Assembly (NCBI RefSeq): GCF_003944795.1
Contig: NZ_RWBG01000002.1
Span: 1 to 64,000 of the forward strand
Direction of reading: 5' to 3'
Origin: Mangrovimonas spongiae
GTDB lineage: Bacteria > Bacteroidota > Bacteroidia > Flavobacteriales > Flavobacteriaceae
Length of the DNA stretch: 64,000 nt
The notes beneath the pieces are model-generated. The model saw nothing but the letters and a program-made list of their open reading frames with translations, was not told where the DNA came from and did no database searches. The first letter of the stretch is position 1. Every line of letters starts with the position of its first letter. Position numbers and translations under genes: made by a program. Shown here in pieces: positions 37,566 to 56,896 of the stretch.

Positions 37566-38720
37566 ATGGCAACAGAAACTGCTAAAAATAAAACGACTAT
37601 TACATTAAATACAATAGAAGAAGCCATTAACGATATTAGGCAAGGAAAAGTCATTATTGTAGTTGATGATGAAGATCGTGAAAACGAAGGTGATTTCTTG
37701 GCAGCTGCCGAAAAAGTAACCCCAGAGATGATAAACTTTATGGCCACTCACGGTCGTGGGTTAATTTGTGCGCCATTAACCGAAAATCGTTGTAAGGAAT
37801 TAGACCTTCATATGATGGTAAATAACAATACCGATCCTATGGAAACGGCCTTTACAGTTTCGGTAGATTTACGTGGTAAAGGAGTAACAACAGGGATTTC
37901 GGCAAGCGATAGAGCTAAAACAGTAGAAGCTTTAATACATCCTGACACTAAACCATTTGAATTGGCTAGACCAGGACATATTTTTCCTCTTATAGCAAAA
38001 CAAGGCGGTGTTTTACGTAGAACAGGTCATACCGAAGCAGCCATAGATTTTGCTAGACTAGCAGGCTTAAAACCTGCTGGCGTAATTGTGGAAATAATGA
38101 ATGAAGATGGCTCAATGGCACGTTTACCACAACTTATGGAAGTGGCAAAACGTTTTGACCTTAAAATTGTGTCTATCGAAGATTTAGTTGCTTACCGTAT
38201 GCAACATGACTCCCTAATTGAAAAGAAAGAAGACTTTGATATTGTAACGCGTTTTGGCACTTATAGACTAAGAGCCTATCAACAAACCACCAACAATCAA
38301 GTACATATAGCGTTAACAAAAGGGAATTGGGCAGAAAATGAACCTGTGCTAACCAGAGTTAACTCTACATTAATTAATAACGACATTTTAGGAACCCTAA
38401 CCAATAACGCCGATAAAAAGTTAGACGACATGTTTAAAGTCGTTAATTCGGCAGGAAAAGGGGCTATCATTTTTATAAATCAGCAAAACCAATCAACCAA
38501 TCTACTTAACAGGCTTCACACTTTAAAAGCTACCCAGAATGCTAAAGATGTTGTTAAGGCTCCTAGCATTAAAATGGATAATAAAGATTTTGGTATTGGC
38601 GCTCAAATATTACACGACCTAAACATACACAAACTACGTTTAATCTCTAATAGCGAACAAACTAAACGTGTTGGTATGATTGGTTATGGGTTGGAAATTA
38701 TAGATTATGTTAATTATTAA
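37566..38720 (+). CDS. ribB: 3,4-dihydroxy-2-butanone-4-phosphate synthase with degenerate GTP cyclohydrolase II domain
   Basis: Makes the four-carbon precursor of riboflavin from ribulose 5-phosphate. The 384-aa product has an intact N-terminal RibB domain (about 12-215): [23 protein letters not shown], and [18 protein letters not shown]. The C-terminal half (about 220-384) is laid out like GTP cyclohydrolase II but the expected zinc ligands are missing: the segment [14 protein letters not shown] replaces the normal RVHSECLTGD motif and no Cys follow. GTP cyclohydrolase activity is therefore doubtful, and a separate RibA is expected elsewhere. Its stop overlaps the convergent lipoprotein gene by 4 bp. 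Confidence 0.93.
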
Positions 38721-39676
38721 TCTAACACCTCAAATTCCTTAAACAGTCCTTTTGCCTTAGCATTAGGAACTTCAGAAATAAAAGCATACTTGCCAGGTTT
38801 TAAATCGGCATAAAAATAGCCTGTGCTGCCTTGGAAGGCATCATTAAAACCTCCTAAAAACGTAATGCCATTAGGTACAGGAGTTATAAACCCTTTTGGA
38901 TCGTACCAAACCATCCAAGACTCTAATTCATCTTTGTTAGCATAATCCTCTAGCTTTACTAGATGCACATCGGTTGAAGCAAAGTTTTCATGTAGTTTTT
39001 GACTTTCAACATTAACTTGAAAAATATGTTTTCCTGTACGAATATCAGGGTTAAAGTGAAAACCATCTTCTCTTATATTTATTGTATCTGTTGCTTGTGG
39101 TGCTACATTACCGCTAGTTGTTTCACTTACAAAAACCTGCTTAACCATCCCCATAGTAGAGTGAAATTTACCGTTAGGCATTTTTACATAACACTCCATA
39201 CTATATAAACCTGGTTCCAACGAAAGTGCCGTATATGTTTTACTTTTAGGTGCGATTAATCCTGAACCTCCGGTAGGAATACATTTACTAAACCACTCTG
39301 GTAATTTACCAAAAGCAGCAAACCCTTCTTCTGCTTTACCTGCGTTAATAAGGTCCATGCCCTCTTCAAAAACAGGATCTGCTTCTTTTTTAAAATTTTC
39401 TGCGGTTATGCCTTCTGGCATTTTTGACAACCTAAAAAAATGTGTTTCGTTTGCTCTGTTATCATATTTAAAGGTATTCCAACCCGAAGCAATGGTGTCT
39501 GGCATTATAAATTCCATACTTTTGGTCAAGATATCTATGGTATTAGTTGGTATTTTCACCGTTTCCTCTACCACTTTTGTCTCAGTAATAGACTCAGCTT
39601 TTTTATCACTTTTACAGCTTAAGAGCATTGTAAACAAGCTTACAAGACATAGGAAGTTTTTAAAAATATTTTTCAT
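38717..39676 (-). CDS. Lipoprotein with two tandem cupredoxin-like modules
   Basis: The 319-aa product has a lipobox LLSC with Cys21. The mature part shows two beta-sandwich-like halves: about 50-190, with GLYSMECYVKMPNGKFHSTMGM, and about 195-319, with PGKYAFISEVPNAKAKGLF. The first module has a Cys, His and Met (C-Y-V-K-M, then H-S-T-M) in an order like a copper site, while the second lacks Cys. I cannot name a family. It is convergent with ribB. Function is unknown; metal binding is a hypothesis. Confidence 0.7.
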   Translation of the reverse strand: MKNIFKNFLCLVSLFTMLLSCKSDKKAESITETKVVEETVKIPTNTIDILTKSMEFIMPDTIASGWNTFKYDNRANETHFFRLSKMPEGITAENFKKEADPVFEEGMDLINAGKAEEGFAAFGKLPEWFSKCIPTGGSGLIAPKSKTYTALSLEPGLYSMECYVKMPNGKFHSTMGMVKQVFVSETTSGNVAPQATDTINIREDGFHFNPDIRTGKHIFQVNVESQKLHENFASTDVHLVKLEDYANKDELESWMVWYDPKGFITPVPNGITFLGGFNDAFQGSTGYFYADLKPGKYAFISEVPNAKAKGLFKEFEVLD

Positions 39677-39805
39677 AAGTAATTGATTATTTGTTTGTTG
39701 TTAAGTTACTACAAAAAAATGAATTGACTATTTTCACATTATAGTCTATACATTATTTGTAACGTATATTTTATCTAGGTTAAAGGTTAATTCTTAAAAA
39801 AAATC

Positions 39806-40219
39806 TTAATTATTTGTATCTCGATAAAATAATTCTGCCGAATAGTCTGTACCATTAATGGATTGTTGGACAGTTATTGTATGATTTTGAAGATTAGTAA
39901 TTTTTAACCAAATTGTATTAGAAACCTGTCCAGTACCTTCAAGATTATCTATTCTTATTATTCTTGAATCCTCATCTTCAAACACCCAATTTCCAGTTCC
40001 AGTATATTCTGTACCTTGTACTATCTTCTTCTGTTGATATTCTCCATTTGAATGAAAATATATATCAGCTGCAAAATCATTTGAGTCGTACCACCACTTA
40101 TCTAAAAGAGATGGCGTTTCAGAAGGATTTTGAGCATCATCATCGCTACTACAACTTGTTACTAGAGTAAGTAGTAATATAAAAGTGCCTACTAATCTTA
40201 AATAATGACCATTTTTCAT
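39806..40219 (-). CDS. Lipocalin-like lipoprotein
   Basis: The 137-aa product has a lipobox VTSC (Cys23) and a short Asp/Ser linker. The remaining roughly 100 residues are beta-rich, with LLDKWWYDS opening and regular strands (IYFHSNGEYQQKKIV, TGTGNWVFEDEDSRIIRI). That is the pattern of the small lipocalin-like lipoproteins abundant in Flavobacteriia. No ligand can be named. It lies 11 bp after the T9SS gene at 40231 on the same strand and is probably co-transcribed with it. Confidence 0.75.
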   Translation of the reverse strand: MKNGHYLRLVGTFILLLTLVTSCSSDDDAQNPSETPSLLDKWWYDSNDFAADIYFHSNGEYQQKKIVQGTEYTGTGNWVFEDEDSRIIRIDNLEGTGQVSNTIWLKITNLQNHTITVQQSINGTDYSAELFYRDTNN

Positions 40220-40230
40220 AAGTTTTATGT

Positions 40231-40695
40231 TTATTTTATAATAATTCGTTTGGTAACTTGCTTGTCACCTATTGTTATTTTTAACAGATACATCCCTGAA
40301 CTTAAGTTGTTCACATCGATTTTATTTTTATTTTCTACAGAAAGTTCTAATTTCCCTAGTATGTTGTATAAGTCAAGCTTATCAACCTCTGTATTTGAAG
40401 TGACCGTTAAGGTTTCAGAAACTGGATTAGGGTAGACTTTTATACTACTCAAAACTACTTCTTGATCAACATCTAAGGTTTGATCCTCCTGAAGTGGATT
40501 GATAAACCCCTCAGACACTAAAATACTTCCTCCACTAACTTCCTGAATATCAACCTCGCCAATAGTGTATATTAATTCAATATTACCATTAAATACACTA
40601 GTACCACCACTGTCTATACTGAATTTTTCTATGGTTTGGGCGGTGCCTGAAAACCACAGTAGAGAGATTATTAAAAAACTGGTTGTTAATTTCAT
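40231..40695 (-). CDS. Small T9SS type A sorting-domain protein
   Basis: The 154-aa product has a signal peptide (1-19, ending GTAQ) and a mature region of only about 60 residues (SGGTSVFNGNIELIYTIGEVD and ILVSEGFINPLQ). It then has a type A C-terminal T9SS sorting domain (about 83-154) with VYPNPVSETLTV, LYNILGKL, and a conserved end SSGMYLLKITIGDKQVTKRI. Such proteins are exported and their C-terminal domain is removed or anchored at the cell surface. The passenger is tiny, so it may serve as a component rather than an enzyme. It follows REP-like sequence and precedes the lipocalin-like gene by 11 bp. Confidence 0.88.
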   Translation of the reverse strand: MKLTTSFLIISLLWFSGTAQTIEKFSIDSGGTSVFNGNIELIYTIGEVDIQEVSGGSILVSEGFINPLQEDQTLDVDQEVVLSSIKVYPNPVSETLTVTSNTEVDKLDLYNILGKLELSVENKNKIDVNNLSSGMYLLKITIGDKQVTKRIIIK

Positions 40696-40710
40696 ACTTG
40701 TTTTTTTATT

Positions 40711-40962
40711 ATGAGATTGCCACGTCGCTACACTCCTCGCAATGACAAAGTTCTTTTGGTTTTACTTCTCGATACATCCAGAGCTTTCTGCCGAAAGCCT
40801 GTACACTCGAAGTGACGGTAGAGCGAAAATTATTAATTGATTTCATTTTTGCTTTTTTAATTGAGAGTCCTCCTCGTCCCTACGCTCCCGATGTTTTTAT
40901 TTGGACATCAATGCTCGTAATGACGCAGCGTCACTGCGAGGACGTAGGACACGGTAGTCTCT
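40711..40962. repeat. GC-rich REP-like intergenic palindromes
   Basis: The gap between the T9SS gene and the S74 gene is GC-rich and palindromic. GATTGC (from 40715) and GCAATGAC (from 40739) bracket a stretch resembling the repeat family GTCATTGCGAG...GCAATC found in many bacterial genomes. A perfect hairpin GCTTTC-TGCC-GAAAGC lies at 40783-40798. A long imperfect inverted repeat spans 40863-40961 and contains the 13-bp palindrome TGACGC-A-GCGTCA (40921-40933). The last may also act as a terminator for the S74 gene. Confidence 0.75.
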
Positions 40963-40963
40963 T

Positions 40964-43585
40964 TTATTGTTGAGATTGCTTCGTTGCACTTGCCATGACG
41001 GCCTTATCGTTATGCTTGTTTTTTTCTAGAGCTTCTACTCTTTTTAGGAGAGCCTCTAAGACTTGGCTTTGCTCTGCACTAGCCGTTTCCTGATTTTGGA
41101 TGGTTTGGGCTTGCTGATCTATAATAGCTTGCTGCTCTTGTATAGCCTTAATAAGTACTGGTATAAGCTCCGTATAGCTAACACTTAAGGTTTTGTCTTT
41201 ATCTCCTGCCTCGTGTACTATCTCGTTGATGATAGGCTGTACTTCTTGAGCGATAAGTCCTAAGGTTTTACGGGTTTGCACTCCGCGGTTTTTCCAGTAG
41301 TATTGCTTGGGTGCCAGTTGTAGCACTTCCTCTAAACCATAGGGCAAGGTTTCTATATTACGTTTTAACCGGCGATCGCTACTATGCACTACGGCACCAC
41401 CAGCATACACATCGCCACCACTTTGCTGTAAATACAGCCCAGAAGCGATCCCATTGTTACGTGCCAAAATCTCGTTACTATCTATCACAATATTGTCTCC
41501 CGTAACATCTCCCAACACCACAAACCCTGAAGTATCTGCATAGGTTGCATCTGTTCCTCCTGTAATATGCAGCTTACTGACTGGATTGGATGTTGTGATG
41601 CCTACATTACCACTCTGAACTACAGTAAAGGCATTACTTCTAGCTGTGCTATTAGTTCCATTACCTATTTGAAAAAGAGAAGTGGTTGTAGCAGATTCAT
41701 TATTAAAGTAACCTACAACAGTAGAAGAGAAGTCATCTGCTATAGTATTATATCCTATAGCTGTTGAATGAGTTCCTGAAGCAAGTGTACCACTACCCAT
41801 CGCTGTTGAAGTTTCTCCTGAAGCAATTGTACCACTCCCCATTGCTGTGGAGGTTAGTCCAGATGCTTCAGTTTCGTTACCCATTGCTGTTGAACTTATT
41901 GATGAAGCTATTGTTAGCGTCCCCATTGCTGTTGAGCCCATTCCTGAAGCTATTGTTTGCGCTCCCAATGAGGTTGCATAAATGTTATTAGCTTCAACTT
42001 GATAACCTAATGCTACCGAATAATCTCCAGATGCTACCGATTCATAGCCTCCAGCAAAAGCATTAGACCCTGAAGCACCTGACAAAGCACCAAAAGCAAA
42101 ACTCGAAACACCTGATGCTATGGTATTAATACCTAATGCAACAGAATTGGATGCATTTGCTGTGTTGCCATATCCTGCCGCTAAAGAATAATTACCTGTA
42201 GCATAAGTTCCTCGTCCAAAAGCCATTGATGAGATTCCAATTGCTTGAGTACCCTCTCCAATTGCAACTGAACTCTCTCCTTCTGCATTACTAAAATATC
42301 CAGAAGCAAAAGATCTATATCCGTAAGCAGATGCCGTATCTCCTAAAGCAATGGAATTAGAACCACTGGCATTTGAACTTACACCTATTGCTGTCGAAAA
42401 GTTACCTGAAGCTTTTGTTAAATAACCCGAAGCAAAAGAATGTGCTCCAGTAGCACCACGCGTATCGTCTGATGACAAGCTTACACTTAAATCCACAGCA
42501 TTCAACCCAATGTCACCAAAATTATTAGGATTACTACCAATCAATCTCCAACCCGTTCCGTTACCTTCATCCAAAGCTTCTAGACCTGTTGGTGAAGTTC
42601 CAGTACCTCCACCAGAATAATTGGCATCTGCATATTCTTTGGTAATGAGAGCTTTTGGGTCGGTAATTTGTTCTATTTCAAAGCTTGGGGCGGTAACGGT
42701 ACCGTTTCTCAACACGGTTAATGCATTACTACGAATATCATTGGTACCATCAATAAATTTACCGTTTCCTACTTCAAACAAAGGATCGTTTTCTGAAGCT
42801 AGTAATGGATCACCACCACCAACATTAAATAGACCTATGGCAGTAGTATTTGGTGCTTCTGCTATCGTACTTTGTCCTAGAGCTATTGAAGTATGTCCTG
42901 AGGCAATTGTACCTGACCCCAAAGCCGTAGCTTGTGTGCCAGATGCCATTGTAATGATGCCCGAAGCAAATGAACCATGACCTGAAGCCGTTGTTTGATA
43001 CCCTAAAGCAACGGCATAATTACCAGTAGCGCCACGAGTTGTAGAACTCGCGGGACTGTAGCTTAAATCAACTGCTCGATCACCAATTGTGCCATAAAAA
43101 TCTGGATTTCTACCTATAAAGCGATAGCCATTCCCGCTGCCTTCGTTAACAATCTCCAGTCCTGTATCATTAGTGTTTTCAGCATATAAAGCAAAGGGTA
43201 CTGCTTTAAATTCCGTGGTTCCCATATCGGTAAGTCCAGAACCTGTATCTATTTGAACTTTTAAAAAGTGTGAACCAAAATAGCTTCCCCAATTAATGGT
43301 TTCATAAACATCTTCATAGCCAGCCTCAGGGTTTCCTTCACCAATATTAGCTATAACAATGCCATTGGCATCGGTAGTTACTGTATGAGTTTCTATATAA
43401 ACTGGATTCAAAAAACCTATTTCAGGACCTTCTAAAATTGAAAACTCAATGGTAATATTTTGGTTGGCAACTACATTACCCGAATCGTCCTTAATCAAGG
43501 CTTTATAGTTGATACCTTTTTGGGCTGTTGCTGTGCCCGCTAGCATAAAAAATAAAGCTACAAGCGGTAATATTTTTGATTTCAT
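40964..43585 (-). CDS. Secreted YadA-head-like repeat protein with C-terminal peptidase S74 chaperone domain
   Basis: The 873-aa product starts at ATG 43585 (MKSKILPLVALFFM); an upstream ATG at 43636 would displace the signal peptide by 17 residues. After the signal peptide (1-22) come a beta-rich domain (about 25-150) and two copies of a module with TRGATG and DLSxSxxS, followed by long runs of about 14-residue YadA-head repeats (pattern SxALGxxxxASGxxS). The C-terminus has the intramolecular chaperone SDRRLKRNIETLPYGLEEVL, a likely self-cleaving Ser-Lys domain, then a trimeric coiled coil (AIIDQQAQTIQNQE). It is probably a trimeric surface fibre. The last dozen residues look repeat-derived. 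Confidence 0.9.
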   Translation of the reverse strand: MKSKILPLVALFFMLAGTATAQKGINYKALIKDDSGNVVANQNITIEFSILEGPEIGFLNPVYIETHTVTTDANGIVIANIGEGNPEAGYEDVYETINWGSYFGSHFLKVQIDTGSGLTDMGTTEFKAVPFALYAENTNDTGLEIVNEGSGNGYRFIGRNPDFYGTIGDRAVDLSYSPASSTTRGATGNYAVALGYQTTASGHGSFASGIITMASGTQATALGSGTIASGHTSIALGQSTIAEAPNTTAIGLFNVGGGDPLLASENDPLFEVGNGKFIDGTNDIRSNALTVLRNGTVTAPSFEIEQITDPKALITKEYADANYSGGGTGTSPTGLEALDEGNGTGWRLIGSNPNNFGDIGLNAVDLSVSLSSDDTRGATGAHSFASGYLTKASGNFSTAIGVSSNASGSNSIALGDTASAYGYRSFASGYFSNAEGESSVAIGEGTQAIGISSMAFGRGTYATGNYSLAAGYGNTANASNSVALGINTIASGVSSFAFGALSGASGSNAFAGGYESVASGDYSVALGYQVEANNIYATSLGAQTIASGMGSTAMGTLTIASSISSTAMGNETEASGLTSTAMGSGTIASGETSTAMGSGTLASGTHSTAIGYNTIADDFSSTVVGYFNNESATTTSLFQIGNGTNSTARSNAFTVVQSGNVGITTSNPVSKLHITGGTDATYADTSGFVVLGDVTGDNIVIDSNEILARNNGIASGLYLQQSGGDVYAGGAVVHSSDRRLKRNIETLPYGLEEVLQLAPKQYYWKNRGVQTRKTLGLIAQEVQPIINEIVHEAGDKDKTLSVSYTELIPVLIKAIQEQQAIIDQQAQTIQNQETASAEQSQVLEALLKRVEALEKNKHNDKAVMASATKQSQQ

Positions 43586-43632
43586 GGTTCTTAATTTTAA
43601 TGGAAGCGATGGTCTAAAAAGGTCTAGCTTTG

Positions 43633-43712
43633 TCAATCTGAACTCGGTTTAGGTTCTAACTTGTAAAATCGTTTGATTGAGATTCTGAAACAAGTTCAGA
43701 ATGACAGACTTT
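43633..43712. repeat. Inverted REP-like pair upstream of the S74 gene
   Basis: TGTCAATCTGAACT (from about 43633) and the inverted copy AGTTCAGAATGACA (to about 43712) bracket this stretch. The latter belongs to the GTCATTCTGAACTTGTTTCAG sequence family I recall in many Flavobacteriia intergenic regions. It sits upstream of the S74 gene and downstream of the MopE-like gene, so it could be a terminator or mRNA stabiliser. Confidence 0.65.
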
Positions 43713-43745
43713 TTATGATTTTTTTAGACCACCTCTTCTTTTCTA

Positions 43746-45470
43746 TTATTTTGCTATAATTATTCGTTTTGTAACGGTGGCATGTTCACTTGTAATACAT
43801 ACAAAGTAGATCCCGTTTCTTTTTAATTGGTTTTGTAAATTCAATTCAACCTGTTGTGCGCTTGAAAAACTACTCCTGTAGACTTCCAGTCCGTAGGTGT
43901 TTTTAACACTTATAGTTACCGTTTCGTTACTACGTGACCAGTTCTTGAAAGCTAGGGTAAACATTCCGTTATTAGGGTTTGGATAAAGTGCTATAGCTTC
44001 TGTATCCATAGCTTGTCTTGCTTGGGTATTGCAGCCTCCTATGGTATCGCCATGATCCAAGTGACGTTGTAATTGGTTTTCCCTAACACACATTTCTATA
44101 GTATCGCCATTATTTTTATAGTGGCAAATAAGGGTTTCACCTACAGCACATGGGTTTGAGTTACACAGGTCGTTTGGATCGTTAGGACACACATCTAAAC
44201 AATCTGGAACGGTATCGCCATCAGAATCCAAGGTATCGTCTTGACCATTACATATATCGTTACAATCGGCCACGCCATCGCCATCAGAATCTTGGTCTCC
44301 TATACAAGGATCTATACAATCTGGAATACCATCGTTATCTACATCTACAGTATCATCTTCCCTATCGCACACATCATTACAATCGGCGATACCATCATTG
44401 TCTTTATCTCTATCTACAGTACCACAACCACAGTCTCCTGGCTCTGTTTTCTTTCTATCGTTAGGACAGCCATCTTGACAATCTGGTGTGCCATCGTTAT
44501 CACTATCCAAAATACAGTCGTTAGTATCTGGTGTGTCCGGATTACAATCGTCGTCTATACCATTACCCACTATTTCTGTGGCTCCCGGGTTTACACTAGC
44601 ATCTTGATCGTCGCAATCCTCTGATTGTAGATAACCGTCACCATCTAAGTCATCATCTGGAGTACTTGCATCACAATCGTCATCAATGCCGTTATAAGGT
44701 ATTTCTGTATTTCCTGTGTAAATAGCTGCATTGGTATCGTCGCAATCACCTTCATTTTCTGTTTGGCCATCACCATCGTTGTCTATATCCAAAGAGCTGT
44801 CTGGTGTGTTCGGATTACAATCATCATCTATACCATTGTCCACTATTTCTGTGGCTCCTGGGTTTACATCTGGGTTAGTATCATCGCAATCTCCTGCAAT
44901 TTCTACATACCTTCCTCCTGGATGGCTGCATTTATCTTCTGATACTAAATCTGGGTTTCCATAGCCATCTAAATCGGCATCCCAATAATAGGTTGTTGTT
45001 GGTAAACCTTCGTCTGTATTGCCATCGCAATTATTATCTTTACCATCACAAATTTCTGGAGCTCCTGGATAGATATTGGCGTCTTGATCGTCACAGTCAA
45101 TATCTGCTGTCACGCCATCGCCATCGTCATCAAGTGAACTACAGCTTGGTAAAAAAGAAGTATATAATTGACTACATTGTGTACCATCAAGTTCACCCCC
45201 TACATAAACAGTTACAATAGATTGTTGCGGTTGTCCACATATAGAAAAAGTATACAGCCCAGAAGAAAAAATTGGATGTGCTTGGCTGTCTCCATTTTCA
45301 TATTCAAAAACCAGAAACTGGTTTTGAATCCCTTCAGTATATGCTACAACAGTTACACACAAGTCATTGCTTTCGCAATAGGGAGTCACACTTATAATTT
45401 CACAAGCGCCTTGGGCATTGGAGTAAGCTACTGTAAACAGTAAACAATAAAGTAATAGTAATTTTTTCAT
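43746..45470 (-). CDS. T9SS-secreted MopE/thrombospondin-type-3 calcium-binding repeat protein
   Basis: The 574-aa product has a signal peptide (1-19, ending YSNAQG). After a short N-terminal domain (about 20-110) it is dominated by Asp-rich repeats: MopE-like metal-binding motifs (DCDDQDANIYPGAPEICDG, and DCDDTNPDVNPGATEI repeated several times) to about residue 315, then thrombospondin type 3 repeats (DSDNDGTPDCQDGCPND and similar) to about 430. A T9SS type A sorting domain ends it (ALYPNPNNGMFTL, then NGIYFVCITSEHATVTKRI). It should be a secreted, calcium-stabilised rod. Its start ATG overlaps the stop of a 45-aa frame (ATGA), so it is probably coupled to that frame. Confidence 0.92.
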   Translation of the reverse strand: MKKLLLLYCLLFTVAYSNAQGACEIISVTPYCESNDLCVTVVAYTEGIQNQFLVFEYENGDSQAHPIFSSGLYTFSICGQPQQSIVTVYVGGELDGTQCSQLYTSFLPSCSSLDDDGDGVTADIDCDDQDANIYPGAPEICDGKDNNCDGNTDEGLPTTTYYWDADLDGYGNPDLVSEDKCSHPGGRYVEIAGDCDDTNPDVNPGATEIVDNGIDDDCNPNTPDSSLDIDNDGDGQTENEGDCDDTNAAIYTGNTEIPYNGIDDDCDASTPDDDLDGDGYLQSEDCDDQDASVNPGATEIVGNGIDDDCNPDTPDTNDCILDSDNDGTPDCQDGCPNDRKKTEPGDCGCGTVDRDKDNDGIADCNDVCDREDDTVDVDNDGIPDCIDPCIGDQDSDGDGVADCNDICNGQDDTLDSDGDTVPDCLDVCPNDPNDLCNSNPCAVGETLICHYKNNGDTIEMCVRENQLQRHLDHGDTIGGCNTQARQAMDTEAIALYPNPNNGMFTLAFKNWSRSNETVTISVKNTYGLEVYRSSFSSAQQVELNLQNQLKRNGIYFVCITSEHATVTKRIIIAK

Positions 45471-45604
45471 GATTTAGAGATTTTAATTGATTTAATAGGC
45501 TTTTTATTTTGCATGATATTAATTGTATAATCACCACGTTTTAAATGATCTATATAGATAAAGATGTTCTTATCATCTTTGATTACTTTATTTTTTTTAA
45601 ACAT
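45467..45604 (-). CDS. 45-aa microprotein (cassette 1), translationally coupled to the MopE-like gene
   Basis: The frame starts at ATG 45604 and ends at TGA 45469-45467, sharing ATGA with the next gene. The product begins MFKKNKVIKDDKNIF and contains IDHLKRGDYTINI. It aligns without gaps to the 45-aa frame of cassette 2 (18 of 45 identical, including IDHLK at residues 18-22). The pattern resembles the last strands of a T9SS sorting domain (compare LSSGMYLLKITIG in the 40231 protein), but there is no signal peptide. The reading frame is in phase with the HTCS gene upstream. Real translation is inferred from the conserved length and coupling. Confidence 0.6.
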   Translation of the reverse strand: MFKKNKVIKDDKNIFIYIDHLKRGDYTINIMQNKKPIKSIKISKS

Positions 45605-45661
45605 GCTATTAAATACTTTCTCGTAGGAATTGTTACTAAGAATAGGGAGTCCTTGTGTATG

Positions 45662-45727
45662 TAAAGCTAGAGTGAGATAAGAAAACGTGGTATGACTTAT
45701 GTAACAAAACGTTACACTTATGTAACA
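45662..45727 (-). promoter_or_regulatory. Predicted HTCS-dependent operator/promoter, cassette 1
   Basis: On the plus strand ACTTATGTAACA occurs at 45695-45706 and again at 45716-45727, a direct repeat with period 21 bp (two helical turns); similarity extends with a few mismatches through 45713 and 45734. The HTCS stop codon lies 15 bp away. On the minus strand the box TAGCTTTA (45669-45662) begins exactly 25 bp after the repeat, matching TAnnTTTG except for the last base. Architecture is identical in cassette 2. A site bound by the AraC domain of the HTCS is the natural reading. Confidence 0.7.
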
Positions 45728-45742
45728 ATTCGTTGAAACACC

Positions 45743-48700
45743 TTATTTTTCGGTGTTTTGAAGATGTTCTTTAGGCGTATAACGATATACTTCTTTAAAA
45801 CATTTAATAAAATAAGATGGTGAGTTAAAGCCTGTTTGGTAAGCGATTTCGGAAATGGTGTAATTAGAGTTTTCCAACAGCGACATAGCTAATTTTAAAC
45901 GCTCATTTCGGATAAATTGCGACGTAGTTAACCCTAAAAGCGCTTTTAGTTTTCTATGCAATTGCATACGACTCATATGCATAGATTTGCTTAAGGTTTC
46001 GGCTGTGAAGTCTGATTGTACAATATGCTCTTTAATGGCTTCTTGAAGCTGCTTAAAAAACTGTTCTTCGGTCTTAGAAGCTTTTATATTGTGAAAATCC
46101 AGAACGTTGTTCTTGCCATAAAACTCCTGAAGTTTTTTTCGAGTGGTTATAAGTTTTTCTACTCTTATCTTAAGCTTTTCACTGTTGAAGGGTTTGGTCA
46201 TATAAGCATCGGCACCTGTTCTTAGACCTTCTATTTCGTTATGATCGCCAGATTTTGCCGTAAGTAGAATAATAGGAATGTGACTAGTTTTGATGTCTTC
46301 TTTTAGGGTATTACAAAGTTGAATACCATCTACTTTGGGCATCATGACATCACTTATAATAATATCTGGAATATGCTTTACGGCCTTTTCAATACCTTTT
46401 TCACCATTACAAGCTTCTATTATTTTATATGTATCTTTTAAAATAGACTTTACAAAAGCTCTTATGTCTTCATCATCTTCCACAATAAGCAATAAAGGTT
46501 TTGTTTCTTTACCATTAAGTTGGATACTTGTTTCTTCTTTAGTATTCGGTTCGTTGGAATCTTCTTCATTTAATACAATAGCTGATATTTCGGTTGAATT
46601 AAAATAAGCTTTTTCTATAGGTAGCGTTACCACAAACTGGATATCATCCTGATTCATTGAGTGTGCTACTACACTCCCATGGGAAAGGACACTAAGTTCT
46701 TTTACTAAAGACAACCCAATACCTACACCTTCACTATGGGTATTGTTTTGGTAATACCGCTGAAATAATGCTGGAAGTTCTTCATCTTTTAAATTGTTTC
46801 CATTATTAAGGATTGTAAGTGTAACATAACCTTGATTAACAGAAGCATCAAATTTTACATAACCATTTTCTGGAGTATATTTTACCGCGTTGTTTAATAG
46901 ATTAGATACTATTTTTTCTACTAAATCCTTATCAAACCAAGCTGCTTCCATGTTTTCAATACTATAAGTAAACTCGATATTTTTCTGCTGGGCTTTAAAT
47001 GCAAAAGCGGTGGCTAATTGTTTTAATAACACCGACAAATTACCTTGTGTCACCAATAACTTAATATTACCTGTTTCTAATTTTGAAAGGTCTAGTAATT
47101 GATTTACTAAATTTAGTAAACGCTTGGAGCTTCTTTTAATAAGGTTGAGTTCCTGCTTATCATTTTTTGAAATATTGGGCTTACACAATTGATTTTCTAC
47201 TGGACCAGAAATAAGTGTTAGTGGCGTACGAAACTCATGAGAAATATTGTTATATAGTTTGGTTTTAAACTCGTCTAACTTCTTTAACCTGGCTGTTTCG
47301 CGAGACTCTAACTCCAATTTCATTTTCATTTGCCAGCGCCAACTAAAATATTTATAAATTCCATAAACCGCTAATAGAAAAAGCATTGTATAAACCGCCT
47401 TAGCCCAATTGCTTAAATACCAAGGCTGTAAAATGGTAAAGGAATAGGTGTCTGGAGTGTTGTTCCATAATCCATCATAGTTACTAGAAATAACTTCGAA
47501 GGTGTAATCGTTTGGTGGTAAATTAACATATCTAGCAACATTATTATTTCCCGATTCTATCCATTCGTTATCATGATTGATTAATCTGTATTTAAAATTA
47601 TTTCCTCTTGGTTTTGAAAAACTTAAACTTTTAAAATCAAATGATATAGAGTTCTTCTCACTATTAAAAGTATGCACGGATTTAAAATCAATTTCGTTAT
47701 TAAGCACCTTAATTTTAGAAATAATGGTTTTAGGACGATTAGGATTTTTAGTAATGGTTTCTGGTTTAAACCAATTTACCCCAGACAACCCTCCAAAGTA
47801 CATGACGCCGTTATCGTCTTTATAGTAGGCATTGGAATTAAACTCCAAAGATTGCAAACCATCATTAGTATTAAAGTTCTCTATTTGGACATTATCTTTA
47901 TCATGGTAGAAAAACTTAACTAGCCCTCTATTGGTACTCATCCAAAGGGTATTATGTTCATCAAAAAGAATTCCATAGATACAGTTATCTGGTAGTCCTT
48001 CCTCTGTTGAAAACAGCTCTTTTTTATTAGATATAATATCGTATCTAATAAGCCCCTTCCCGTTAGTTCCAATCCATAATATATTTTTATTAACTGGATC
48101 AAAAGCTATGCTTTTTATCTTCTTAGACTCTTTAAGTTTTTGCTCGATTTTACCCGAATTAAGATCTACTGTATAAATGCCATCGGAGTAGGTTGATACC
48201 CATAATGTTTTCTGATTGTCTTCGATAATACATGAAACTGCATTGATTGGTTCAGAATTAATATCATCTATTTGATAATGGTACTTTTCAATCACTCCTA
48301 AACTTCTATCAAATTTAACCAAACCATAATCACAGGCTAGCCACATTTGCCCATTTGAATCTTTAAAAATTTTATTGATATAGTTAATATCTAATGGTAC
48401 TTCAGAAAATTTATTGTACACCTCTGCCCCACCATCTTCTTTTAAAATTGTTAACCCTCCTTTTTTCTTTAACACAGTTCCATTTCCTATCCAAAGATCA
48501 CCATCTTCATAATACAAAGCATCAATAGCTGAGGTAAGTAAAGGTGAGTTTTTATCGGTTAGGGTTTTAAATTCATTTGTTAATTTATTACTAACTGTTA
48601 GACCGTTGGTTGTGCCCAAAAAAACACGTTGTTCATTATCTGATGTAATAGAAAGTACTACTTCTACATTTATATCTTTAGGAACCTGACCTGCGGTTAG

Positions 48701-49735
48701 CACATTGAATTTAGATAAATATTCATCGTAATACGCTAAACCTGATACATTGGTTCCTAACCAAATTACACCATTCGAATCTTCATACAAACTAAATATT
48801 TCATTATCGCTTAGAGCGTACAAATTCCCTTTTTGAAATTTTAGTTTTTCAATGGTATTCGTTCTTAAATCAAGTAGTAAAATTCCTTGTTTTAAAGTAC
48901 AAATCCAGAGTCTTTGGTATTTATCTTCATGTAAAGACAGAATATACAAATCCTTTGGAAGTTTAGGATTTATCACATTTGCCGATTGGAAGTCTTTATC
49001 TAACTTGGTTTTAAAATATAACCCATCTCCTAAAGTCCCCAACCAAATAGTACCATCTTTCGATTTTTCTAATACATGGTTTCTTTTAGAGTTTTGATTG
49101 TATATCGTGTTATATTCTTGAGTTTTTAAGTTATACTTATAAATATGTTTAAATGTTGTAAAGTATAAATCCTCTTCAACTTCTAGAAAATGATGAACAA
49201 CCAAGTCTTTTTTAGTTGGTTTAAATATGATGGTTGTATCTTTTGTTTTAGCATTTACCGATACAATATTACCGTTGTACATACTAAAATACATATTAGA
49301 ATAAGAGTCTTGAAAAAGATTTACTACAGAATCGTTTGGAAAAACCCTAGAAAATTTATCGGTCTTCTTTTGGTATTTTTCCAATTTACAACCAGAAGAT
49401 ATAATCCACAAATCATCTTGACGATCTACAAAGACTCTTCCTAAAATTTTACCCCTTCCTTTGGCAGTCGCATCAAATTGTTTGTTGTAAGCTTTAAAGG
49501 TATTTCCATCGTACCTATCTAAACTACTTCTTGTTGCTATCCATAAATACCCTGTACTGTCCTGCGCCATGCTAATAACACTGTTTTGCGACAGTCCATC
49601 TTCGTTGTTTAAGTACCTAAATGTAACTTGTTTAAGATTAGGGTTTGTTAATTTAATTTCTTGAGTTTGGCTAAATACCAACGATGAGTAAAATAAACTT
49701 ATAACAAGCGATATGTAGATATAACTCCTAGTCAT
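45743..49735 (-). CDS. Hybrid two-component system (HTCS) sensor/regulator 1
   Basis: A single 1330-aa protein combining all parts of a two-component system. It has a signal peptide (about 1-22), a periplasmic double propeller of repeats such as LWIGTNGKGL (about 30-690), a Y_Y_Y domain (NLPPNDYTFEVISSNYDG), one membrane helix (about 795-815) and a cytoplasmic kinase with HEFRTPLTLISGP. The HATPase (NLLNNAVKYTPENG), receiver (LLIVEDDEDIRAF, phosphoacceptor Asp in IIISDVMMPK) and AraC HTH (about 1230-1330, ending YTPKEHLQ) follow. Such proteins usually sense glycans beside SusCD genes, but none is nearby here. Its likely target is the promoter just past its own stop codon. Confidence 0.96.
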   Translation of the reverse strand: MTRSYIYISLVISLFYSSLVFSQTQEIKLTNPNLKQVTFRYLNNEDGLSQNSVISMAQDSTGYLWIATRSSLDRYDGNTFKAYNKQFDATAKGRGKILGRVFVDRQDDLWIISSGCKLEKYQKKTDKFSRVFPNDSVVNLFQDSYSNMYFSMYNGNIVSVNAKTKDTTIIFKPTKKDLVVHHFLEVEEDLYFTTFKHIYKYNLKTQEYNTIYNQNSKRNHVLEKSKDGTIWLGTLGDGLYFKTKLDKDFQSANVINPKLPKDLYILSLHEDKYQRLWICTLKQGILLLDLRTNTIEKLKFQKGNLYALSDNEIFSLYEDSNGVIWLGTNVSGLAYYDEYLSKFNVLTAGQVPKDINVEVVLSITSDNEQRVFLGTTNGLTVSNKLTNEFKTLTDKNSPLLTSAIDALYYEDGDLWIGNGTVLKKKGGLTILKEDGGAEVYNKFSEVPLDINYINKIFKDSNGQMWLACDYGLVKFDRSLGVIEKYHYQIDDINSEPINAVSCIIEDNQKTLWVSTYSDGIYTVDLNSGKIEQKLKESKKIKSIAFDPVNKNILWIGTNGKGLIRYDIISNKKELFSTEEGLPDNCIYGILFDEHNTLWMSTNRGLVKFFYHDKDNVQIENFNTNDGLQSLEFNSNAYYKDDNGVMYFGGLSGVNWFKPETITKNPNRPKTIISKIKVLNNEIDFKSVHTFNSEKNSISFDFKSLSFSKPRGNNFKYRLINHDNEWIESGNNNVARYVNLPPNDYTFEVISSNYDGLWNNTPDTYSFTILQPWYLSNWAKAVYTMLFLLAVYGIYKYFSWRWQMKMKLELESRETARLKKLDEFKTKLYNNISHEFRTPLTLISGPVENQLCKPNISKNDKQELNLIKRSSKRLLNLVNQLLDLSKLETGNIKLLVTQGNLSVLLKQLATAFAFKAQQKNIEFTYSIENMEAAWFDKDLVEKIVSNLLNNAVKYTPENGYVKFDASVNQGYVTLTILNNGNNLKDEELPALFQRYYQNNTHSEGVGIGLSLVKELSVLSHGSVVAHSMNQDDIQFVVTLPIEKAYFNSTEISAIVLNEEDSNEPNTKEETSIQLNGKETKPLLLIVEDDEDIRAFVKSILKDTYKIIEACNGEKGIEKAVKHIPDIIISDVMMPKVDGIQLCNTLKEDIKTSHIPIILLTAKSGDHNEIEGLRTGADAYMTKPFNSEKLKIRVEKLITTRKKLQEFYGKNNVLDFHNIKASKTEEQFFKQLQEAIKEHIVQSDFTAETLSKSMHMSRMQLHRKLKALLGLTTSQFIRNERLKLAMSLLENSNYTISEIAYQTGFNSPSYFIKCFKEVYRYTPKEHLQNTEK

Positions 49736-50114: not shown

Positions 50115-50549
50115 TTATTGGCGTGTCCACTCTTGATAGTTACCAGCCCCAGAAGCATCTACTGATATCCAAATAACATCATCTGATTGAAAGTTTATAT
50201 TTGCACTGTAATAATTGTAATCGCTACCCAATTCTGAATGGGTAAAATCGTTAATATCATCAGCTTGTATATTCATCCATTTTACATCATCTATCTCAAA
50301 TCCAGAGGTAACAGGATCTACAATAACTCCATTTTCATCTATTATATTAATAATCATTCCTTCATTTCCTTCATGGTTTCCTCCTGTACGTAACCAAGTG
50401 CCTTGTAAATCATCAAGTGTATAAGAAGTTTCATTATCGGGGTTATTGTTATTGTTTTCATTAATAAATGGATTATCGTCTTGAGAGCAAGACATTATAG
50501 TAATAAGTAGTAAGGCGAATAAATAAATGATTTTAGAATTTGTTTTCAT
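50115..50549 (-). CDS. Lipocalin-like lipoprotein
   Basis: The 144-aa product, from ATG 50549 (MKTNSKIIYLFALL), has a lipobox IMSC (Cys21), then a low-complexity Asn/Asp linker (NENNNNNPDNE) and a roughly 100-residue beta-rich domain opening LDDLQGTWLRTGG and closing GNYQEWTRQ. The upstream ATG at 50591 would put a charged stretch before the signal and is less likely. This is the same general class as the 39806 protein. It follows the DUF4412 gene by 94 bp and may belong to cassette 2. Function is unknown. Confidence 0.75.
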   Translation of the reverse strand: MKTNSKIIYLFALLLITIMSCSQDDNPFINENNNNNPDNETSYTLDDLQGTWLRTGGNHEGNEGMIINIIDENGVIVDPVTSGFEIDDVKWMNIQADDINDFTHSELGSDYNYYSANINFQSDDVIWISVDASGAGNYQEWTRQ

Positions 50550-50643
50550 AATGTGATTTTTTAATGGTTTTTTGTTTTTAATTAAATACATATTGGTTAA
50601 ATAATTTTTGATAATGTTAAGATTGACACTTGCTATGATGCAT

Positions 50644-51483
50644 TTACATAAGTTTTTTATACTCTTTAGAGTTTATCGTTACATCTTGCTCTTCTAGTGC
50701 CACACAGCGCATGGTTATGGTTTCAGGTTTTCTTTTTGAAGTATCGGTAACCTGCATATCCAAAACAAGACCATTTACTTGAGTCATCCATTGCTGGTTA
50801 GTGGCTTGTTTTTTATTGCTTATATTGTAAAATTCATTTGGGAAACTAACATCTGCACTTTGGGTTACCCAAACATAGCCTTTCATGTCGCTAGATGTAA
50901 TAAGGTATTCTTCGCAAGGATACCCTAATATGGTTTTTGTTTTTCCAGATTTTTTAATACGTGCATCACTTTCGCTATCAGCTTTATCTAGTATTTGATT
51001 AAAGTTTAAGGATGTTGCCATTAACATTTTGCTATTACCAGCTTCGGTATACATAAACATGGTTTTTTTCTCGAAATCCATCACAGTGGTCATGGTGCTT
51101 GCAGACTCAATAGTACTTCCCAAATAAGATTCTCCTTTAGATAAATAATAATTTATAGTGGTATTATACTTCCCGCTTTGCAGTTGCATAACATATTTAT
51201 GGGTAAATTGGTAAACTGCTCTTGGCGATTTATTAGATTGAGCGCTTGAGGATTTCTTATCGCTTTTTTTCGATGTCTTTTTTCTGTTGAATGTCGAGTC
51301 GAAGGCTTTTTCGGTTTCTTTTCTACTTTTTTGTTCAACTTTTCTTTCAACGGTACGTTCTGCAGAATTAACAGCCTTGTCTGCCAAGCGCTCCAAAAAC
51401 TGGGCTTGTCCAGTAAATGAAAACAGTACGGCAAAACTTAATGTGCTAATACATTTTCTGATTTGTAGGTCTTGATGCTTCAT
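50644..51483 (-). CDS. Secreted DUF4412-like protein
   Basis: The 279-aa product has a hydrophobic N-terminal segment (about 10-27, ending TGQAQF) acting as a signal peptide, then a charged Lys/Ser-rich helical region (about 30-88) and a C-terminal domain of about 190 residues with the layout of DUF4412: YQFTHKYVMQLQSGKYNTTINYYLSKG, KTILGYPCEEYLITSSDMKGYVWVTQ and a closing LEEQDVTINSKEYKKL. Function is unknown. Its ATG overlaps the stop of a 45-aa frame (ATGA), exactly as the MopE-like gene does in cassette 1, so it is the presumed effector of HTCS2. Confidence 0.8.
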   Translation of the reverse strand: MKHQDLQIRKCISTLSFAVLFSFTGQAQFLERLADKAVNSAERTVERKVEQKSRKETEKAFDSTFNRKKTSKKSDKKSSSAQSNKSPRAVYQFTHKYVMQLQSGKYNTTINYYLSKGESYLGSTIESASTMTTVMDFEKKTMFMYTEAGNSKMLMATSLNFNQILDKADSESDARIKKSGKTKTILGYPCEEYLITSSDMKGYVWVTQSADVSFPNEFYNISNKKQATNQQWMTQVNGLVLDMQVTDTSKRKPETITMRCVALEEQDVTINSKEYKKLM

Positions 51484-51617
51484 TTTTTATTAATATTTAT
51501 TGTTTTAATTATTTCGTCTTTTAACAGAATATTGAGTTGATAAGATCCCGACTTTAAATGATCTATACTCAAATAAATGGTATTGTTATTAAGTAGTGTT
51601 TTATTTGGTGTATCCAC
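51480..51617 (-). CDS. 45-aa microprotein (cassette 2), translationally coupled to the DUF4412-like gene
   Basis: The frame starts at GTG 51617 (no ATG is available; an in-frame TAA lies just upstream) and ends at TGA 51482-51480, overlapping the next gene's ATG. The product begins MDTPNKTLLNNNTIY and contains IDHLKSGSYQLNI. Length and IDHLK position match the cassette 1 frame exactly, and a 15-mer of DNA (TTTAAATGATCTATA) is shared. Like its partner it has no signal peptide and resembles the end of a T9SS sorting domain. The GTG start and lack of ATG make it the weaker of the pair, but the conservation argues for function. Confidence 0.6.
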   Translation of the reverse strand: MDTPNKTLLNNNTIYLSIDHLKSGSYQLNILLKDEIIKTININKK

Positions 51618-51649
51618 TATTATTATAATTTAAACGTTAAAAGACAGGG

Positions 51650-51715
51650 TAAAGATAATTGTGAAGAATGCATGCGTATACGACATATGTTCCAAAGTAT
51701 AGAACATATGTTCCA
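51650..51715 (-). promoter_or_regulatory. Predicted HTCS-dependent operator/promoter, cassette 2
   Basis: On the plus strand ACATATGTTCCA occurs at 51683-51694 and 51704-51715, period 21 bp, spacer 9 bp, as in cassette 1; 9 of 12 core bases match the other cassette. The HTCS stop codon lies 19 bp away. The minus-strand box TATCTTTA (51657-51650) starts exactly 25 bp after the repeat. Confidence 0.7.
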
Positions 51716-51734
51716 TGTTATAAAACAGTAGGTT

Positions 51735-54700
51735 TTATACGTGTTTAGAAGCGTACTCGTTAGGCGTACAACCAAATATTTCTTTAAAACACTTATTAAA
51801 ATAAGATGGTGTATTGAACCCTACTTGATAGGCTATCTCTGCTATGGTAGCATCTGATTTTTGTAATAATTCCTGAGCTAGTTTTAAGCGTTGGGTTCTT
51901 ATAAATTCGGTAGCGCTAACGCCAAATATTGCTGTAAGTTTTCTATGCAGTTGTGTGCGGCTCATTTGCATATGTTTACAGAATTGTGTGTTATTGAACT
52001 CTTGATTTGTAATATGTTTGTCTAAAACTATTGTTAACCTTTTTAAAAACTGGTCATCGTTAGATATTATTTTTAAGTCGGGTGTAATACTTAATGTTTT
52101 TCCGTAATGTTGCTGTAAGCGTTTACGAAGTTCTAATTGTTTATTTACAATTAATTTTAGTTTTTTAGGGTTAAAAGGTTTTGTTATATAAGCATCTGCA
52201 CCTGTTTTAAAACCTTCTATTTCATTAGCCTCACCAGATTTTGCGGTTAACATAATAATGGGAATATGGCTAGTTTTAATATCCTGTTTTAATTCGTTGC
52301 ATAGTTGCACGCCATCTAGCTTAGGCATCATAATGTCTGTAATAATAACATCGGGAATATGTTTTAATGCAAATTGTTTACCTTCTTCCCCATTACTTAC
52401 TTGAATAACATTATAAGTATGTTTAAAAATAGTTGCTACAAAATCATTAATTTCTTTATTATCTTCAACAATTAACACCATAGGGTTCTTACTATTGTGT
52501 TTAGTTGTTGAGGTCGATGGTATATCTTCTAATTTCTCTCTAAAGTTGTTTTCTGAAATCTCATCACTAATTTCTGAAATTTGATAAAATGAACGCTCAA
52601 TAGGTAGTGTTACCGTAAATTGGATATTGTCTTCATTAATAGTATTTGCAACAATATTACCATGCGTTACAATAGCAAGTTCCTTTACAAGGGATAACCC
52701 AATGCCTACACCATCTGTACTCTTTTGGTTTTGATAATACCGTTGAAATAGTTTTCCTAATTGCTCATTAGGTATGGTGTTCCCATTATTAATAAAACTC
52801 ATTACAAGTTGGCCATTTTTTCGTGTAGTTTCAAAATATATCTGTCCATTTTTAGGCGCATATTTTACCGCATTAGATAATAGATTAGTAACTATTTTCT
52901 CTACAATATCACGGTCAAACCATACTTGTTTTAGCTCTGGTATAACATAGGTAAACTGAATATTCTTTTGTTGTGCTTTATATTGAAATGCTTCTGCTAT
53001 TTGTTTTAACAATACGTCTAAGTCTCCTTGTTGTATCGCTAGTTTAAAGTGACCTGTTTCTAATTTTGACAAATCTAACATCTGGTTTACCAAGTTTAAT
53101 AAACGCTTAGAATTGTCCTGAACCATTAATAACTCTTTTTTGTCTTGTTTAGTTAGTTTTGGTTTGGCTAATTGTTTTTCTATAGGCCCTGTAATTAAAG
53201 TTAGTGGCGTTCTAAATTCATGGGAAATATTAGTGTATAATTTGGTTTTAAATTCATCTAATTTCTTTAACCGTATGGTTTCTTTATGTTCAAACTCCAG
53301 TTTCATTTTCATATGCCAGCGCCATTTTAAATATTTATAGACCCATACACTAATTCCTAATAGTAATAAGGCATAACATATAATCGCTAGTGTGCTTAAA
53401 TACCATGGTTTATTTATAGTAAAAGTATAAGTAGCAGGAGTTTCGTTCCACACGCCATCATAATTACTAGAAATAACTTTAAACGTATAATCGTTTGGGG
53501 GTAAATTTGTATAGTGCGCTGTATTGTTATTTCCAGAAGAAATCCAATTAGGATCATGATTAACTAACTGGTACTTATATTGATTTCGGTCTGGCTGCGA
53601 ATAATGTAAACTTGAAAACGTAAATGTCATGGTGTTTTGCTTTGATGAAAACACATCGTTTTGGGTTATTTTATGCGGCTTGGCAAAAATGTCAAAACCA
53701 GAAATTATTGTTCTAGGCTTATCTGAATTATAGGATAATTGATTAGGGTTGAACCAGTTTAATCCTTCCAAACCACCAAAGTATAACATACCTTTTTCAT
53801 CTTTAAAATAAGCTCCAGTATTAAATTCATTGGTTTGTAAACCATCGTAATTACTAAAGTTTTCAATAGCAACAATCGTATCGTTATCAATTGTAGCTTT
53901 TGTTAACCCTTTATTAGAACTTAACCAAAGATTATCTTTTGAATCTGGTAAAATGGCATAAACTACATTATTTGCTAACCCTTGGTTTGTGGTAAAATGT
54001 TTTATGGTTTTAGATTGTGTATTATAAGCTTTTATACCGTTGCCATTAGTTCCTACCCATAATATATTATTATTGTAATAAAGTGATTTTATTCGGTCTT
54101 TAATCTCTTTAACATCCACAATAATTCCCGTTTTAGTATTTAAAACATATAAACCGCTGCCTTCTGTTCCAATCCAAAGTTGATTGTCGTTACCAGACTC
54201 AACTGTTCTTATAGCATTGGATGTTAATACAGAGTTTTTTGAATGATACGTTTTAACAACTCCTTGCTCCTCATCAAACAAGACCAAACCATTTAAGGTA
54301 CATAACCAAAGTCTATTATTTGCCGCTTGATAGATTTTCCATATAGACATTCCTTTAGTTACATCAAAAGATTTGAATGTCTCATTGGCAATCCACTTTT
54401 GAAGTCCGCTATTTTGATGTCCAATCCACAATGTACCTTGGCTATTAAACAAACTCATTACTCTATCACTCGATAAAGTTGAGTTTTTTGTAGTGTACAT
54501 CTTATAACTGTTGGTTTCAAAATCTATAGCCGTTAATCCTTTGTTTGAAGTCCCTAGCCAAACCTCGTTGTCCTTTTTAACAATAGCTCTTACAAAATCT
54601 ATACTTATATTGTCTGGCGCTTGTTTATTGGTTAACACATTAAATTTAACCAGATCTTCATCGTAATAACTCAATCCGGAACCATCGGTTCCTAACCAAA

Positions 54701-55640: not shown

Positions 55641-55679
55641 TAATAGCTAGTTTCAACTATTAAAGTTATCAAAAAATTC

Positions 55680-56873: not shown

Positions 56874-56896
56874 AATATTTTAATTTGATGTTATGT

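Follow-up and report, generated by a model that had tools for sequence, protein, structure and literature searches.

The first 64,000 nucleotides of contig NZ_RWBG01000002.1 of Mangrovimonas spongiae (forward strand; referred to as the window, i.e. the whole stretch of DNA that was analysed) contain a gene of 45 amino acids, here called microprotein 1 (45467..45604, minus strand), next to the gene of a hybrid two-component system regulator (HTCS). Sequence comparison indicates, with hardly any doubt, that this frame is a conserved small gene heading an operon dedicated to that one HTCS. We tentatively propose that its main function may be feedback on its own HTCS, by analogy with the small connector proteins that tune two-component systems. 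The original prediction, made from the letters of the window, had described a real small gene coupled to the gene of a secreted protein and similar to a sorting domain of the type IX secretion system (T9SS), and had suggested that it might imitate such a domain inside the cell or control translation of the secreted protein.

The gene runs from an ATG at 45604 to a TGA at 45467 (45 codons, MFKKNKVIKDDKNIFIYIDHLKRGDYTINIMQNKKPIKSIKISKS) and is the first gene of cassette 1. As predicted, its stop codon overlaps the start of the following cargo gene, which encodes a MopE-like protein, in an ATGA (45470-45467, minus strand). A paralogue of the same length, microprotein 2 (51480..51617, minus strand, GTG start), is 40% identical to it and has the motif IDHLK-x-G-x-Y in common with it. 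Microprotein 2 likewise overlaps its cargo gene, which encodes a DUF4412 protein, by ATGA and lies immediately downstream of the gene of a second regulator, HTCS2, as microprotein 1 does of that of HTCS1.

That the frame is a real gene under purifying selection is evident from codon comparisons within its family. Pooled synonymous divergence (pS 0.75) exceeded non-synonymous divergence (pN 0.17) in 307 non-independent pairs, from which L113 and L114, both lacking the motif, as well as pairs below 68% nucleotide identity had been dropped, and pS was greater than pN in every one of the 45 pairs shown. Microprotein 1 and its counterpart in a relative of the same genus (pair L001/L004) gave dS 1.18 and dN 0.09. 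Conservation and selection together rule out a chance open reading frame (ORF), and the conserved repeat and promoter-like box described below, together with the ATGA-coupled paralogue, likewise bore out the prediction of a real small gene. Two broken copies, L103 (genome G362) and L031 (genome G013), each with an in-frame stop, speak against conservation and demonstrate that copies decay too.

A 31-residue consensus matched 77 of 397 sampled Flavobacteriaceae genomes at E 0.001, in 61 of 237 genera, and a profile made from the two window copies matched 34 of 149 relatives at E 0.01. The other 320 genomes of the family sample gave no match at E 0.001, which speaks against general conservation; among them was a genome of the same genus (G001), also without a full-length HTCS match. 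The stronger matches sit in short open frames. Eight weaker matches of the profile, in long frames, were inspected. Two of them (L026, L032) are part of another protein; the other six are tails of proteins and carry a PNP motif, as T9SS sorting domains do. In a second genome scan all 79 loci came from Flavobacteriaceae or from metagenome-assembled genomes labelled just Bacteroidetes or Bacteroidia; the genera include Mangrovimonas, Winogradskyella, Psychroserpens, Aequorivita, Allomuricauda/Flagellimonas, Maribacter, Xanthomarina, Bizionia and Algibacter. In two overlapping genome samples, one of the order and one of the phylum, matches at E 1e-4 occurred in 10 of 296 and 6 of 395 genomes respectively, the window's own genome counted, and the two matches beyond Flavobacteriaceae were weak (G108, a PNP tail, and G481). 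These searches place the microprotein in an unannotated small-protein family of marine Flavobacteriaceae.

The core motif of the family is I-Y-x-x-I-[DN]-H-L-x-x-G-x-Y. Among 132 members (excluding lengths outside 40-56 amino acids, sequences with X residues and those with no M, V or L start), Y26 is invariant, L21 and G24 are present in 98%, K44 in 96%, I14 in 92%, K38 in 89% and H20 in 88%, while the N-terminus is variable and the length ranges from 40 to 55 amino acids. The median pI is 9.7 and the median net charge +5 (range -1 to +13). None of the 132 members passes a crude signal peptide rule, in agreement with the original prediction. Neither window copy matches Pfam or NCBIfam over a cut-off. 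No relative was found in the PDB by sequence search at E 1 or by fold search, an absence that means little since a hairpin of 45 residues is too small. No match for microprotein 1 was obtained in plasmid sequences, and in PHROGs four families had one weak member match each, two of them from microprotein 1 (best E 9.7e-4). In one genome, three microprotein matches lie on one strand within about 16 kb (G459:C11:27455-43660), probably a tandem array of cassettes.

Linkage to the regulator, with a predicted operator and a changing cargo

Two collections of loci with partly shared genomes were used, i.e. set A with 95 distinct loci (after removal of the broken copy L103, of long frames, of duplicate proteins and of hits lying within 300 bases of where a locus ends) and set B with 79 loci and 83 short hits. 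In set A the C-terminus of an HTCS was found upstream on the same strand within the fetched stretch in 91 of 95 loci, the exceptions being L014, L050, L105 and L107. It lay within 600 nt in 86 loci, with a gap of 85-220 nt in 78, and 1.25-5.1 kb away in five; the predicted microprotein frame overlapped the HTCS in two loci, and in four of the 95 the frame start assigned by the script is not a start codon. In set B an HTCS lay within 600 nt for 80 of the 83 short hits and farther off for the other three. The search for the same frame beside HTCS genes elsewhere, proposed with the original prediction, was thus positive in both sets.

Linkage to one type of regulator was also seen in a tree of HTCS proteins. 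All 49 microprotein-bearing rows of 104 (45 distinct genes, four of them fetched twice) fell inside a single 61-row clade with an SH-aLRT support of 99, and the microprotein label changed seven times on the tree compared with 34.8 times after shuffling (0 of 500 shuffles as low). The tree resulted from a quick search, with support below 80 for 32 of 99 inner branches. Its rows were picked by similarity to HTCS1, together with a chosen group-2 set, with matches below 33% identity or 300 amino acids excluded, and the percentages are no census. One row, L171, was labelled by hand because its microprotein lies about 1.25 kb downstream. The rows outside both the clade and its nearest relative, L255, number 42. 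No microprotein was found within 900 nt in the 41 of them for which downstream sequence was available (L141 has none); L134, L139 and L141 are partial matches.

The gap between HTCS and microprotein contains a predicted operator. A direct repeat of two [GT][TAG][TA]ACA half-sites 21 bp apart was present in 80 of 95 gaps and in 0.5% of shuffles. This pattern was written after the sequences had been viewed. The histogram of spacings, which imposes no distance, is less prone to bias: here 21 was counted 78 times and the runner-up 18 times. In 72 of the 80 loci a TAnnTTTR-like box followed 25-60 nt past the repeat, the distance being exactly 30 nt in 71 of those 72. Excerpts of the literature describe TAnnTTTG as the -7 element of the main sigma factor of Bacteroidetes (PMC6847099, PMC9723704) and HTCS motifs of Bacteroides as direct repeats spaced 21 bp apart on average (PMC3878776). 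Behind HTCS genes outside the clade the 21-bp repeat occurred in only two of 42 rows. Binding of the HTCS at these predicted operators would fit the pattern.

In the window the predicted operator of HTCS1 (45700..45726, minus strand) has two GTTACA half-sites 21 bp apart and is followed after 30 nt by the predicted -7 box TAGCTTTA (45662..45669, minus strand). The predicted operator of HTCS2 (51688..51714, minus strand) has two GGAACA half-sites at the same distance, with the predicted -7 box TATCTTTA (51650..51657, minus strand) again 30 nt past it. The HTCS1 pattern TTGTTACATAA-N10-TTGTTACATAA occurred at one site in the 2.77-Mb genome even with up to three mismatches allowed, and the HTCS2 pattern at one exact site and at one with three mismatches. 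As the two operators differ, each HTCS of the window looks private to its own cassette. The three-mismatch site (G000:C2:231421-231453, L358) lies outside the window, upstream of a gene that starts like one for a secreted protein and that is a possible second target of HTCS2. A different arrangement was observed in Mangrovimonas yunxiaonensis (L196:4490-5140), where the HTCS is followed by an operator, a -7 box and a GCTATTAATC hairpin with no microprotein in between, then by a second operator, a microprotein and DUF4412; this looks like a collapsed pair of cassettes.

The genes downstream of the microprotein are less constant. First cargos, compared by BLAST at 1e-6 after removal of their first 22 residues, so that remote homologues count as different, and looked for within 350 nt, formed 31 clusters. 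They were similar in 8% of pairs at 50-60% HTCS identity, 7% at 60-70%, 19% at 70-80% and 38% at 80-90%, and in all eight pairs above 90%. Microprotein identity, by comparison, tracked HTCS identity with a Spearman coefficient of 0.67 (pairs of 117 loci). Since HTCS and microprotein vary together while the cargo changes, HTCS, operator and microprotein form a stable head to which an exchangeable cargo is attached. On this comparison, the microprotein gene belongs with the HTCS and not with the cargo.

Sorting-domain resemblance and proposed function

The predicted similarity to a sorting domain was upheld for the family as a whole, but only for the C-terminal half of the domain and with no score seen above a curated cut-off. 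A hidden Markov model (HMM) built from 30 T9SS C-terminal domains (CTDs) of the window's own genome gave scores of 5 bits or higher to 129 of 132 microproteins, compared with 1-8 of 132 shuffled or reversed sequences. The alignment lay on the C-terminal half of the CTD in at least 130 of 132 (beginning at position 25 or later), the window copies aligning to positions 36-66 and 36-60 of 69. Profile comparison with the CTD gave a probability of 72%, while the controls, eight column-shuffled CTDs and one reversed CTD, did not exceed 1.1%; a relation to the Y_Y_Y domain of the HTCS itself, at 13%, was set aside. In 51 unselected members Pfam gave weak matches to DUF3244 in 32 (best E 5.5e-4) and to Por_Secre_tail in 22 (best 8e-4; E 0.1), and NCBIfam gave LIC_12238 in 22 and TIGR04183 in eight (best TIGR04183 E 1e-4). 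Ten members picked as likely strongest, and so not a fair sample, all matched both Por_Secre_tail, at best with 25.7 bits (E 1.4e-5; cut-off 27), and TIGR04183, at best with 22.2 bits (cut-off 23). Microproteins 1 and 2 matched neither model at E 1.

Membership in the T9SS type A sorting domain (PF18962/TIGR04183) was rejected, the scores seen being below cut-off and the N-terminal YPNP half missing. The microprotein is also no C-terminal part of a Sec-exported protein, being free-standing at 40-55 amino acids with no signal peptide by the crude rule. DUF3244 and the unrelatedly named LIC_12238 score similarly weakly, indicating that part of the CTD signal is a general strand pattern. From these comparisons descent of the microprotein from the C-terminal half of a sorting domain is likely, while convergence on the end strands of an Ig-like fold may be an alternative. 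The near-cut-off scores raise the case for descent and say little of function, so our estimates for the functional readings were left as they were.

AlphaFold2, run with 51 sequences, predicted an N-terminus of low confidence and a confident C-terminal hairpin with strands 24-32 and 35-44 (pLDDT block means 91-95; pTM 0.49); a second start sequence gave the same result. A lone open hairpin, as modelled, suggests that the peptide may have a partner or form a homo-oligomer.

A regulator gene with a private operator, the first target of which is a conserved, apparently cytosolic peptide that travels with the regulator, has the topology typical of proteins for feedback or tuning. Once its sensor responds, the HTCS would bind the 21-bp repeat and transcribe microprotein and cargo. 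The microprotein would remain in the cytoplasm and act back on its own HTCS, most likely by damping it, with the beta-hairpin perhaps docked on the kinase, the receiver or the AraC part. Covariation between microprotein and HTCS was above all 60 partner-swapped nulls (top-20 mean 0.195, null maximum 0.1885; the null is imperfect).

Several observations weigh against feedback. The excess of covariation is small given that imperfect null, and the top covarying microprotein column, residue 19 (D or N), also splits subfamilies. Linkage and shared descent alone would make the identities of microprotein and HTCS agree. Twelve distinct HTCS in or next to the clade have no microprotein within 900 nt, and eight of them keep the repeat (L150, L160, L162, L164, L165, L167, L253 and L255), so the circuit can exist without the peptide; in six of these eight the first longer frame begins like an exported protein. 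Finally, likeness to half a secretion signal would not be expected of a kinase inhibitor.

In another reading, which we consider unlikely, the peptide would derive from the C-terminal half of a T9SS CTD, or from some other Ig-like domain, and would work on export, for example as a strand-donating chaperone of the cargo or by engaging the export machinery. This is in keeping with the scores for the CTD model, the profile probability, the Por_Secre_tail and TIGR04183 matches of the ten picked members and the Por_Secre_tail matches of 22 of the 51 unselected ones, and also with the first cargos, 114 of 130 of which have a signal peptide or lipobox by a crude rule (13 of 120 shuffled sequences). 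An excerpt of PMC11285876 maps the T9SS signal of HBP35 to the last 22 residues of its CTD. A T9SS CTD was, however, present in only six of 109 complete first cargos; the 21 of 130 cut by a locus end were left out of this count, among them the MopE gene of the window, which does bear one. Moreover, the microprotein has neither a signal peptide nor the N-terminal half of the CTD, the conserved H20, K38 and K44 look like a separate signature, the similarly weak scores for DUF3244 and LIC_12238 mark part of the CTD signal as a strand pattern of a general kind, a sub-threshold resemblance to DUF4870 membrane proteins was seen in some cargos, and the microprotein follows the HTCS rather than the cargo. 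The scarcity of CTD-bearing cargos means that mimicry of a sorting domain, or a decoy for it, as had been suggested, is not the general function.

Improbable as well, in our judgement, is a leader or coupling ORF that sets translation or transcription of the cargo by re-initiation at the ATGA or attenuation at a hairpin. The microprotein is the first ORF past the promoter-like box, and both cassettes of the window have the ATGA overlap. Across the two sets a conserved overlap with the downstream start, as expected of a translational-coupling leader ORF, was not found: ATGA occurred in nine of 88 set A loci and 13 of 76 set B loci with a downstream gene, and the gap in set A, which reached 333 nt, did not exceed 30 nt in 50 of 88 loci. 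Directly after the microprotein stop, 23 aligned loci have GCTATTAAT (GCTATTAGT in one row) and then a terminator-like hairpin, in place of which the window cassettes have the ATGA overlap. The stem of the hairpin covaries, with two-sided changes in nine of 12 pairs, and its cells were paired in 93%, compared with 85% when shuffled and 55-69% when slid. GCTATTA was found within 60 nt past the stop in 25 of 95 loci (e.g. L008, L009, L010, L013 and L016). By eye, GCTATTAAT can also be seen in these genomes ahead of several further hairpins of the terminator-like kind, though only a few, and is thus not special to the microprotein; an inverted repeat flanking it (AATAGC / GCTATTA) was dropped as a candidate because both halves occurred in just six of 95 loci. 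The position of the hairpin suggests that in the species that bear it the peptide may be made in excess over the cargo. As coupling is exceptional and a hairpin often intervenes, control of translation of the secreted protein does not hold as a general function either. In addition, the amino-acid sequence is kept and not its position alone, and the peptide persists while the cargo changes.

Somewhat more doubtful still is a reading in which HTCS, private operator and a microprotein made from half of a secretion-signal fold are a modular sensor head ahead of exchangeable surface-protein genes, and in which the peptide, as a cytosolic stand-in for export cargo, would report the load on the export route to the sensor; if true, this would close a loop from secretion back to transcription. 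We give little credence to a basic nucleic-acid-binding peptide that acts on the operator or the mRNA as a local co-activator or autoregulator. The median pI and net charge of the family are in line with it, as is the position of the top covarying HTCS column (residue 1305) in the AraC domain, but the charge varies from -1 to +13, no fold match was obtained and the covariation is weak. A leaderless exported peptide sensed by the periplasmic sensor of the HTCS in an autoinducing loop is very improbable in spite of the tight pairing with one sensor clade, as there is no export signal and, although no search was aimed at one, no gene for an exporter was noticed next to the copies in the window.

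Gene content of the two cassettes

All genes of both cassettes lie on the minus strand. HTCS1 (45743..49735; 1330 amino acids) comprises a propeller/Y_Y_Y sensor, a histidine kinase, a receiver and an AraC-type regulator. The first cargo of cassette 1 is the MopE-like secreted protein (43746..45470; 574 amino acids), in which Pfam identified four Cu-binding_MopE stretches and a Por_Secre_tail domain, the T9SS CTD; it has no homologue among the first cargos of other cassettes. It is followed by a YadA-head/endosialidase-chaperone protein (40964..43636), the true start of which is likely the ATG at 43585 and which resembles 18 first cargos elsewhere, and by a small T9SS protein (40231..40695), the likeness of which to four first cargos is perhaps partly through the sorting domain alone. 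A putative lipoprotein (39806..40219) is assigned to the cassette by position and strand only and showed no Pfam match and no homologue among first cargos; a second one at the far end of the cassette (38717..39676) resembles seven first cargos.

Cassette 2 consists of HTCS2 (51735..55640; 1301 amino acids), microprotein 2, the ATGA-coupled first cargo, an exported DUF4412 protein (50644..51483) resembling 23 first cargos elsewhere, and a putative lipoprotein (50115..50591) resembling three. Altogether, five of the seven cargo genes of the window resemble first cargos of other cassettes. The cargo families also include a lipocalin-like lipoprotein, metallopeptidase, kelch and FGE-sulfatase-like proteins, and several of 20 cargo proteins scanned had no family match.

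A short frame between the cargo of cassette 2 and HTCS1 (49924-50046, minus strand) matches Por_Secre_tail below the cut-off (E 0.013), resembling the final half of a T9SS sorting domain, and may be what is left of a T9SS gene that was lost. A search of positions 38000-57000 with Rfam gave nothing over the gathering scores. Consensus scans of the region for sigma-70 promoters (76 hits, 74.6 in shuffles) and terminators (8 hits, 9.5 in shuffles) were near chance and were not used.

Comparison with known systems

The best-known role of HTCS is the regulation of polysaccharide loci. The cassettes share with the HTCS operons of Bacteroides, as described in an excerpt of PMC3878776, an AraC-type HTCS, a direct-repeat operator of about 21 bp and targets beside the HTCS gene. 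Unlike these, they have a conserved microprotein as first target and a variable surface cargo, no SusC/D was among the genes read in cassettes 1 and 2, and one close operator per HTCS was predicted in the window genome. The arrangement is a variant of HTCS-controlled operons and is itself new. The microprotein family looks new as well: literature searches aimed at a small gene beside an HTCS gave, among the papers listed, no description of such a gene.

In its alignment with the T9SS type A sorting domain the microprotein covers the C-terminal half and has the pattern of L-x-x-G-x-Y and a terminal K, whereas it differs in being free-standing, in the missing N-terminal half and signal peptide, in scores below the cut-offs where scored and in H20, K38 and K44. 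Its match to DUF3244 (PF11589) is sub-threshold, with scores seen of 13.9-19.2 bits against a cut-off of 25, and in the members shown falls late in that domain, than which the microprotein is far shorter.

Sda is a small connector protein of two-component systems. Another is MgrB, a 47-amino-acid inhibitor of PhoQ encoded inside its own regulon (excerpts of PMC8404706; for the class also PMC10576120). Like the small connector proteins, the microprotein is shorter than about 60 amino acids, co-occurs with the system that is its proposed target and is encoded in the predicted regulon of that target, membership being predicted from the operator only. In contrast to MgrB, a membrane peptide, it is predicted to be a soluble beta-hairpin with a one-piece HTCS as its partner, and the two are likened by features and not by sequence. 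One HTCS clade thus carries its own conserved microprotein together with a swappable surface cargo, and each of the two HTCS of the window also has one private predicted operator in its genome. With one regulator, one operator and one 45-amino-acid gene, this would be a compact system for small-protein tuning of a one-piece two-component regulator and also for the question of how half of the fold of a secretion signal became a free-standing cytoplasmic protein.

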